Source of the DNA: Limnohabitans sp. Rim28
GTDB lineage: Bacteria > Pseudomonadota > Gammaproteobacteria > Burkholderiales > Burkholderiaceae_C
Length of the DNA stretch: 64,000 nucleotides
Direction of reading: 5' to 3'
Assembly (NCBI RefSeq): GCF_000293865.2
Contig: NZ_ALKN02000003.1
Span: 62,001 to 126,000, forward strand
Positions within the stretch are counted from its first letter, which is position 1. Every line of letters starts with the position of its first letter. A program made the position numbers and the translations under genes. Below the pieces are notes generated by a model that ran no database searches, had not been told where the DNA came from, and worked only from the letters and a program-made list of their open reading frames with translations. Shown piece after piece: positions 37,616 through 40,633 of the stretch.

Positions 37616-40600
37616 TCAGCCCAGACGTTGCAGTTGCTGGCGGATTTTGTCGAGCGTGGCACCGAAGTCGGCCACGCGCTTTCTGGTTTCGTCGAGCACC
37701 GCTGGCGGTGCTTTGGCCACAAAGGCCTCGTTGCCGAGCTTGGCGTTCGCCTTGGTGATTTCGCCTTCCAAGCGAGCGGCTTCTTTGGTCAGGCGAATTT
37801 TTTCTGCGGCTGCATCCACTTCGATGAACAGGCAAAGGCGAGCCTCGCCTACCACGGCCACAGGCGCGGCTTGTGCGGCAGCGATCCATTCGGCTTCGGC
37901 CTCAAAGACCTTGACTTCGCTGAGCTTGGCCAGCGACTGCAGCACAGGCGCCACGCTCTGCATGAAGGCGGTGTCGCCCAGCACATACAGGGGCATGCGG
38001 GTGGCGGGTGAGACGTTCATTTCGCCGCGCAGGTTGCGGCAGGCGTCCACCAAGGTTTTGAGCTTGGCCACATGGGCTTCAGCGGCTGCGTCGATGCGTT
38101 CGGGCTGGCTCACGGGGTAGGCCGCGATGCTGACCGATTCGCCCGCACGGCCCGCGACCACCGACACTTTTTGCCAGAGTTCTTCGGTGATGAACGGGAT
38201 GATGGGGTGCGCCAAGCGCATGATGGTCTCTAAGGTGCGGATCAGGGTGCGGCGGGTGGCGCGTTGTTGGGCATCGTTGCCGGTGTTGATCTGCACCTTG
38301 GCGATTTCGAGGTACCAGTCGCAGAACTCGTTCCACACAAAGTCATAAATCGTGTTGGCCACGTTGTCCAGGCGGTATTCGGCAAAGCCTTTGGCCACGT
38401 CGGCTTCGACCCGCTGCAGTTGTGAGCTGATCCAGCGGTCGGCCTGGCTGAACGCCAAGTAGCCATGCGCCGGACCGCCCACTTCGCATTCGGCTTTGGT
38501 GTGTTCTTTCAGGCCGCAGTCTTGGCCCTCGCAGTTCATCAGCACAAAGCGGGTGGCGTTCCACAGCTTGTTGCAAAAGTTGCGGTAACCCTCGCAGCGC
38601 TTGCTGTCAAAGTTGATGCTGCGGCCCAGGCTGGCGAGTGCTGCAAAGGTGAAGCGCAGCGCGTCCGCGCCATAGGCCGGAATGCCTTCGGGGAATTCTT
38701 TTTCGGTTTGCTTGCGAACCTTGGGGGCCGTCTCGGGTTTGCGCAAACCTTGGGTCCGCTTGTCGAGCAGAGGCTCCAAAGTGATGCCGTCGATGAGGTC
38801 CACCGGGTCGAGCACGTTGCCTTCGGACTTGCTCATCTTCTTGCCTTGGGCGTCGAGCACCAGGCCGTGGATGTAGACGTGTTTGAAGGGGACTTTGCCG
38901 GTGAAGTGTGTGGTCATCATGATCATCCGGGCGACCCAGAAGAAGATGATGTCGTAGCCTGTGACCAGCACGCTGCTGGGGAGGTAGAGGTCGTAATCGC
39001 TTTGGCTGTTGTTGTCGTTGGTTCCGCTGGCGAGCGTGCCGGAACCGGTCTTGCTCCTACTCGCTTCGCTCGCCATGTCGCTGCGTCCGGTCCCGGCACG
39101 CTCGCCTGCTGCGTCGCTGTTCCAACCCATGGTGCTGAACGGCACCAATGCTGAGGAGTACCAGGTATCGAGCACGTCTTCATCGCGCTTGAGCGTTTTG
39201 CCGGGCGATAACTTGTCAGCTTGGGCTTGCGCCTCGGCTTCGTTGCGGGCCACATAGACCTTGCCGTCTTCGTCGTACCAAGCGGGAATCTGATGGCCCC
39301 ACCACAGTTGGCGTGAGATGCACCAGTCCTGAATGTTGTTCATCCACTGGTTGTAGGTGTTGACCCAGTTTTCGGGCACAAACTTGACTTCGCCGGATTG
39401 AACGGCGTCAATGGCCTTTTGCGCAATGCTTTTGCCGGTGGCATCGCCTTGACCCACTTGGTTCATGGCGACAAACCATTGGTCGGTCAGCATGGGCTCA
39501 ATCACTTGGCCCGTGCGGGCGCAGCGCGGCACCATGAGTTTGTGCTTCTTCACTTCGACCAAAGCGCCTGCCGCTTCGAGGTCTGCCACCACGGCTTTGC
39601 GGGCCACGAAGCGGTCGAGGCCTTGGTATTTCTCGGGGGCGTTGGTGTTGATCGTGGCGTCCAAGTTCAGCACGCAGATCATCTCCAGCTTGTGTCGCTG
39701 GCCGACTTGGTAGTCGTTGGTGTCGTGCGCGGGTGTGACCTTGACCACGCCTGTGCCGAAGTCTTTGTCCACGTAGTCGTCGGCGATCACGGGGATCGTG
39801 CGGTTGCACAAGGGCAAGTTGACCTGTTGGCCAATCAGGTGTTGGTAGCGCTCGTCTTCAGGGTGCACCATCACGGCCACGTCGCCCAGCAGGGTCTCAG
39901 GGCGGGTGGTGGCCACGGTCAACGAACCACTGCCATCGGCCAAGTCATAGCGGATGTGCCACATCGAGCCTTCTTCTTCGGCGCTTTCAACTTCCAAATC
40001 GGACACCGCGCTCATGAGCACCGGGTCCCAGTTGACCAGGCGTTTGCCACGGTAGATCAGGCCTTGTTGGTAGAGCTGCACAAAAGTTTCGGTCACGGTT
40101 TGGGACAACTTGGGGTCCATCGTGAAGTATTCGCGGCTCCAGTCCACGCTGTCGCCCATGCGGCGCATTTGGCGGGTGATGGTGCTGCCGGACTCTTCTT
40201 TCCACGCCCAAACCTTGCTCACAAAGTTCTTGCGGGCTTCGGCTGGTGTCGGACCCATGTCGTGGCGGCTGATGCCTTGGGCCTGAAGCTGGCGCTCCAC
40301 CACGATTTGCGTGGCAATGCCCGCATGGTCTGTGCCCGGTATCCAAGCCGTGTTGTGCCCCAACATGCGGTGGTAACGGGTCAACGAGTCCATGATGGTC
40401 TGGTTGAAGGCGTGGCCCATGTGCAAAGTACCCGTCACGTTCGGCGGTGGCAGTTGGATGGCAAATGCCGGGGCGCCTTCCTTTGGCGCTTGCGTCCCCC
40501 GGAAACCGGCCACACCGTAGCCGCGCTTTTCCCATTCGGGGCCCCAATGGGCTTCGAGTGTGGCGGGTTCAAACGATTTGGACAGGCTCTCAAGGCCGGG

Positions 40601-40633
40601 CTGGTGGACCGGACTGGCGGGGGCGTTGCTCAT
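37616..40633 (-). CDS. valS: valyl-tRNA synthetase with an in-frame palindromic-repeat insert
   Basis: A 1005-residue class I synthetase charging tRNA-Val. The HIGH region is [15 protein letters not shown] near residue 60. The KMSKS loop is [10 protein letters not shown] near 595-604. The editing domain lies between them, and a C-terminal coiled coil runs to the end ([25 protein letters not shown]). Between FSTMGW (W504) and [13 protein letters not shown] there are 49 residues instead of about 13 in E. coli. The extra segment, rich in Gly/Ser/Arg/Thr, is encoded by an inverted repeat (39,029-39,106). The frame is kept and both flanks are intact, so the enzyme should work, with a new surface loop in the catalytic core. 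Confidence 0.95.
39029..39106. repeat. palindromic repeat inserted within valS coding sequence
   Basis: The arms GGCGAGCGTGCCGGAACC (39029-39046) and GGTCCCGGCACGCTCGCC (39089-39106) are inverted copies matching at 17 of 18 bases, separated by 42 bases. The whole insert as judged from the protein is about 108 nt, a multiple of three. In the valS frame the arms read AGERAGTG and TGSGTLAS. Confidence 0.85.

Follow-up and report, generated by a model that had tools for sequence, protein, structure and literature searches.

The window, that is, the whole stretch of 64,000 nucleotides from Limnohabitans sp. Rim28 that was analysed, carries on its reverse strand the gene for valyl-tRNA synthetase (ValRS), and a palindrome lies inside the reading frame of this gene (Table 1). 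The original prediction had placed a palindrome here with 18-nt arms 42 nt apart. The palindrome is present in the valS frame and the repeat is somewhat longer than described, with 23-nt arms that are 91% complementary and separated by 38 nt. Folding of the valS-sense strand of the 88-nt element gave -32.3 kcal/mol as single-stranded DNA (z -6.84) and -56.4 kcal/mol as RNA (z -8.42), and in neither case was any of 200 shuffled sequences equal or better. Across the window, the covariance model R1 has a sole other match up to E 10, which scores E 3.8.

Table 1. Features of valS and of the hairpin element inside it (window coordinates)
Feature	Position	Strand	Basis
valS (valyl-tRNA synthetase, 1005 aa), which holds the element	37616..40633	-	ORF; Pfam tRNA-synt_1, Anticodon_1, Val_tRNA-synt_C; 1gax match E 1.2e-199
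Variable loop with the element, 41 residues, N505-S545	38999..39121	-	ValRS comparison with congeners
88-nt hairpin element, sense to valS	39024..39111	-	Covariance model R1, 78.4 bits, E 5.4e-17 (this copy belongs to the R1 training set, so the score is not independent)
Outer stem, 5' arm (valS sense)	39087..39109	-	Inverted-repeat search; pairing in DNA and RNA folds
Outer stem, 3' arm (valS sense)	39026..39048	-	Inverted-repeat search; pairing in DNA and RNA folds
Conserved tip, reading GACATGGCGAGCGAAGCGAGTAGGA in this copy	39055..39079	-	Loop columns 33-57 of the 88-column alignment A1
Core GCGAGC-GAA-GCGAGT, possible mini-hairpin (tandem G.A pairs, GNA triloop)	39059..39073	-	Exact in host genome also at ends of contigs C9 and C17

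The segment from DTWYSS to TGYDI is 74 aa long in the host ValRS and 38 aa in six congeners (G083, G025, G004, G078, G071 and G082), so that 36 residues (108 nt) are extra, in agreement with the size first proposed. The six short alleles have 5 residues, mostly PEKTP, in place of the 41-residue loop of the host, and relatives without the insert at this exact point, as had been anticipated, therefore exist. One of these empty sites is in G083, whose ValRS is 96% identical. In the alignment to Thermus ValRS (1gax), two residues separate the aligned block ending at 472 from the one starting at 475, and from this alignment it is plausible that the element sits in a surface loop of the enzyme. An AlphaFold model of ValRS, with a mean pLDDT of 44, was discarded as evidence for exposure of the loop.

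The element consists of a 23-bp outer stem, a bulged A, a 6-bp stem and a conserved tip of about 25 nt (GATTTGGCGAGCGAAGCGAGTATGA). Copies from congeners follow the rough layout CGCAGC-[arm]-CGGA-stem-GATTTGGCGAGCGAAGCGAGTATGA-stem-CCG-[arm']-GC; most Limnohabitans matches are 88-89 nt long, and the sequence before the stem is not constant (by eye, GCAG, GTAG, CAAG, ATAG and others). The alignment A1 contains 57 of the 72 extracted copies in 88 gap-free columns, the 15 excluded copies being near-duplicates from valS and a few poorly paired ones. Among these 57 mixed copies, two-sided changes occur in 28 of 29 pairs, and 85.5% of cells are paired versus 53.0% in shuffles. The covariation score is 0.745 versus 0.10-0.20 when the partner is slid by 1-3 columns; the structure was derived from the same sequences, so the slide control favours it, and the size of the gap is not due to that alone. 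The valS copies taken alone (n = 57) have two-sided changes in 24 of 29 pairs versus 11-18 in slid controls, with a score of 0.443 versus 0.03-0.08. Most valS copies do not keep the inner 6-bp stem intact: three of its pairs fail in 38, 38 and 47 of the 57. The tip itself could form a mini-hairpin, GCGAGC-GNA-GCGAGT, with tandem G.A pairs and a GNA triloop, in 117 of 121 well-paired copies, a set from which 69 of 190 copies had been dropped for having fewer than 17 outer pairs, partly through a register shift caused by a tip one base longer. GNA triloops in DNA are very stable. Energy-model folds of the window copy's tip, as DNA or RNA, do not contain the mini-hairpin.

Unlike the tip, the arms are specific to each locus. 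In nine genomes with 3-8 fetched copies each, the arms of different copies within one genome look unrelated (medians of 8-11 matches out of 23), and among the copies compared near-identical arms were found only in tandem duplicates. The original prediction had taken an arm unique in the genome as the sign of an old protein insertion rather than a mobile palindrome, and the 116-nt region containing the arms indeed has a single strong match in the host genome, namely valS. However, the repeated part is the tip and the arms are locus-specific, so the uniqueness of the arm does not end the idea of a dispersed repeat. The tip recurs at other loci with different arms, which bears out the proposal that the lineage has a dispersed family of palindromes. 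In the host genome there are five matches to R1 at E<=0.01. The copy on contig C5 lies between an ABC-transporter-ATPase-like and a dihydroorotase-like ORF (names by eye), the copy on C6 is flanked by two ORFs on one strand, and the core of the window copy, GCGAGCGAAGCGAGT, is found again where contigs C9 and C17 end. Both of these contigs (C9, L093:1-73; C17, start of L094) end about 20 nt from the element core, and the palindrome may be what interrupted the assembly there.

Within Limnohabitans, the tip pattern with up to 3 mismatches was found in 35 of 60 genomes and the reversed-pattern control in none of the 60; the initial tip-pattern list of 76 rows includes at least two poor elements (L078 at 762 and L084 at 1672). 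R1 at E<=0.01 matched 45 of the 60 genomes with 0-23 matches per genome, a lower bound because strict R1 filters lose weak matches. Three genomes of 100% completeness (G001, G006 and G031) are free of the element. In the family of the host, R1 at E<=1e-5 matched 32 of 250 genomes and 23 of 141 genera, Limnohabitans included, and in its order R1 at E<=0.001 matched five of 300 genomes, two of them Limnohabitans. The order-survey match in G172 falls within a frame resembling a penicillin-binding protein and appears to be a chance hit. The exact 26-nt tip pattern occurs in 96 stretches among 84,980 species genomes. The 80 that were listed belong to Limnohabitans, Rhodoferax, Hydrogenophaga, Polaromonas, Hylemonella and Comamonas or have titles of wider groups (Comamonadaceae, Burkholderiaceae, Burkholderiales, Beta- or Gammaproteobacteria, Pseudomonadota, 'bacterium'). 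Exact matching of the degenerate tip pattern to the virus collection gave no stretch. Copies other than those in valS are apparently mostly intergenic.

The loop of valS is occupied repeatedly: 30 of the 80 listed exact-tip stretches lie in valS, each with a sense copy (orientation by eye). On the ValRS tree, 29 of 52 Limnohabitans rows carry the element in the loop and 23 do not, the six congeners with the 38-aa segment being among these 23, and 15 of the 26 loci newly fetched in the family survey are the same loop, from 13 other genera, some with decayed copies. With so many relatives occupied, the notion of a recent entry private to this strain has to be given up. All 57 distinct valS sense copies share one frame (the sense strand was searched), and this speaks for few insertions into valS. 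On the ValRS tree, rows with and without the element are interleaved, with 10 changes, eight of them forced by starred branches; two of the ten are supplied by the decayed copies of G468 and G487, which are labelled absent. Two arm types are also interleaved on this tree (by eye). The interleaving of presence and absence is read as exchange of loop alleles plus losses, and the alleles were probably exchanged between species by homologous recombination. Local identities around the loop, confounded by upstream indels, did not confirm recombination tracts. In L282 and L340, the sense copy is accompanied by an exact antisense copy upstream. A divergent hairpin pair is seen in valS of L155, L159/L245, L282 and L340, and the loops of L155 and L159 have about 90 residues.

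Unrelated genes also contain in-frame copies, in both orientations. The YgiQ copy (L170, PF08497) lies in a loop of varying length among relatives, the DUF3025 copies (L169 and L322) lie ahead of the PF11227 domain, and the copy in an MmeI-type methylase (L172) is in a gene whose family match is 27.7 bits versus a cut-off of 27. The homologous DUF3025 ORF of the host genome (L235:3162-4007) is without the stretch, by eye. Two in-frame copies are present in one MmeI-type methylase gene of L242 (1166-1247 and 2505-2590). Long ORFs over other copies (e.g. L029, L077 and L060) were judged spurious by eye.

Between coaBC and pyrG, which were matched in 57 of 60 genomes, the 30 fetched loci comprise nine with the hairpin, 14 compact ones, among them that of the host genome, with 3-4 nt between two flanking words, and seven with other sequence, one of which (G068) was not delimited. 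Relative to its sister G011, G063 lacks 102 nt, which comprise almost all of the hairpin plus some 20 nt preceding it. By eye, comparison of empty and filled sites at valS and coaBC-pyrG reveals no clear target-site duplication, and the flanks vary. Between murB and argG (names by eye), hairpins in (-,+) order may flank small genes; in L104, L241, L243 and L244, different small genes stand between two hairpins at the same place in different species. By eye, we take these to be a thioesterase-like gene, two short DUF4160/DUF2442-like ORFs and a lipoprotein-like gene. The ORFs between murB-argG hairpins spaced by about 1 kb look like ordinary small genes, with no transposase recognised by eye, and were set aside. 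Among neighbouring copies, 33 pairs lie within 400 nt of each other, 26 of them in (-,+), three in (-,-), two in (+,+) and two in (+,-) order; these include orthologous pairs and are not independent, and single copies are common. Orientation is mostly kept: among 153 distinct copies, two orthologous pairings are flipped versus 79 in the same orientation. At one orthologous locus the tip is inverted between unchanged flanks (L346 versus L046 and L078).

What is conserved in valS seems, from codon comparisons, to be the nucleic acid rather than the peptide. In all 29 Limnohabitans carriers the third bases of GCG-AGC-GNA-GCG-AGT are invariant while the flanking codons change amino acid, whereas downstream (28 rows) a single third base is retained at only 6 of the 38 degenerate sites whose residue is invariant. 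The carriers were called from the peptide, since choosing them by the nucleotide core would be circular, and being related they do not amount to 29 independent trials. A tip frozen at third codon positions points to constraint on the nucleic acid rather than on the peptide. This makes it very improbable that the insert is an old protein insertion kept for a peptide core, with the palindrome incidental. A strict core, D-[LMIF]-A-S-x-A-S, is found by eye in the ValRS loops of nine of 14 genera and is degraded elsewhere, and such a core together with the single frame of the valS sense copies would suit a peptide insertion; yet the same nucleotides recur beyond valS, apparently in intergenic DNA, and the 23 Limnohabitans ValRS rows without the segment also speak against it.

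The conserved tip and covarying stems also fit a selected structure. An mRNA or DNA structure serving as the binding site of a host protein or as an RNase substrate, selected site by site and in valS tuning translation or mRNA turnover, would explain the near-constant length together with the conserved tip and two-sided stem changes, the usual mark of selected structure, and the position of the murB-argG hairpins after gene ends (gene names by eye). We regard this as unlikely given the patchy presence of the element, with close relatives that are without it at valS and coaBC-pyrG, its occurrence in unrelated genes in both orientations, and the element-free genomes of full completeness. A search of Rfam with the element gave nothing at gathering score, the weaker matches being to miRNA-precursor models and, once, to isrG. 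Mutation bias alone is hardly credible as the whole explanation. Template switching in palindromes could renew arms that are unrelated between loci and yet nearly perfect, and it could account for the one natural tip inversion; with neither mobility nor function, and the tip spread by homologous exchange alone, it leaves the constancy of tip sequence and of length at unrelated loci unexplained.

We consider it likely that the insert represents a REP/RPE-like palindromic element of Comamonadaceae, dispersed and non-autonomous, which is old in valS and tolerated in a permissive loop, and whose arms are kept paired by hairpin-templated correction, by selection or by both. In the mechanism proposed, the tip of a folded single strand, more probably of DNA than of RNA, would be recognised by a putative recombinase or transposase acting in trans, as TnpA-REP does on REP hairpins, and the arms would need pairing only and no fixed sequence. 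Correction templated by the hairpin or by a cruciform would keep the arms complementary and could flip the tip as well, with selection possibly contributing. The valS copy would be an old one, in a permissive loop and a stop-free frame, sometimes lost by deletion. Presence and absence vary among close relatives at both valS and coaBC-pyrG. No recent transposition was caught, as no two non-tandem copies of a genome among those compared have common arms; many copies are orthologous (the 79 same-orientation pairings), which counts against recent movement. The unrelated arms within a genome mean either that movement is old or that arms change quickly. The search for a mobilising gene found none. 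PF01797 transposases are present in 58 of 60 congeners, including the three complete element-free genomes, and no hairpin match at E<=5 was obtained in eight fetched PF01797 loci. Since PF01797 is present regardless of the element and the eight loci gave no hairpin, a RAYT partner is not supported; a resident PF01797 gene may act in trans.

More tentatively, the family could represent a class of structure-recognised mobile palindromes, a possible though doubtful generalisation. Sequence would be specified in the tip only and the arms would serve as a ruler of about 23 bp that corrects itself and is free in sequence; tip, bulge and stem length would be read by a single-strand recombinase, hairpin-templated correction would rewrite the arms at each locus, and the ValRS loop would be a long-lived safe harbour across a bacterial family.

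In-frame palindromes are best known from Rickettsia. RPEs are described in PMC10969869 as palindromic repeats of about 150 bp; nearly half of them lie in ORFs, fused in frame, and each has a conserved peptide. The present element resembles them in its in-frame insertion into unrelated genes (valS, YgiQ, DUF3025, MmeI-type methylase) and in a conserved peptide of coding copies, seen in the valS loops of nine of 14 genera, although here the constraint seems to lie at the nucleotide level. By comparison with RPE descriptions it differs in its unrelated host clade, its fixed tip with arms unrelated between copies, and its occupation of one loop of one synthetase gene across genera. REPs, according to PMC8266576 and PMC3116915, are 20-50 nt long, mostly preceded by GTAG and present in hundreds to thousands of copies; they are small palindromes that often form inverted doublets with a linker, compensatory hairpin changes are seen in REPINs, and in E. 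coli REP hairpins a bulge is required for TnpA-REP activity. REPs have also been reported inside ORFs (PMC3733652). The inverted doublets of REPINs have a counterpart here in the prevailing (-,+) order of neighbouring pairs. In contrast to REPs, the element is 88 nt long with no fixed GTAG (or CGTC) before the stem, its arms are variable and its tip conserved, its copy number is low (at most 23 R1 matches per genome, a lower bound), and no RAYT association was found. In integrons, attC sites are folded single strands recognised by structure with little sequence conservation, and they keep their ends and vary in the middle. Recognition of a folded single strand by its structure is what is proposed for the Limnohabitans element, which, judged by description, is set apart from attC by keeping its middle and varying its arms. 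Long inverted repeats in protein-coding genes of Nematomorpha mitochondria keep both pairing and protein, as described in PMC6649704; there both arms encode conserved protein regions, whereas the Limnohabitans element is an extra, dispersed insertion.

In the open-licence PMC literature, whose limited coverage makes this weak evidence of absence, no paper among those listed appeared to cover this hairpin family, and a valyl-tRNA synthetase insertion in Comamonadaceae gave no paper at all; the core strings turned up in two papers, whose titles concern Torque teno virus PCR and rpoB of Photorhabdus. Here in-frame palindromes are found in bacteria of fresh water, within a synthetase essential to the cell and at one loop in many genera. 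The anatomy of free arms and a fixed tip opens two questions to direct test: self-correction of the arms by DNA hairpins in vivo, and the means by which cells put up with so stable a hairpin in an essential enzyme's mRNA.

Two further observations concern single loci. In valS of L209 (G026), an apparent second extra segment lies near residues 332-344, where the tblastn pieces overlap in the query and extra DNA stands between them. In YgiQ of G007 (L403:2173-2197), a different in-frame insert, GSPRRFAPRDDGSVVIASEARQS, is built on another palindrome, TCATTGCGAGCGAAGCGCGGCAATC, which has a GCGAGCGAAGCG core in common with the element and of which three similar copies are present in L292.
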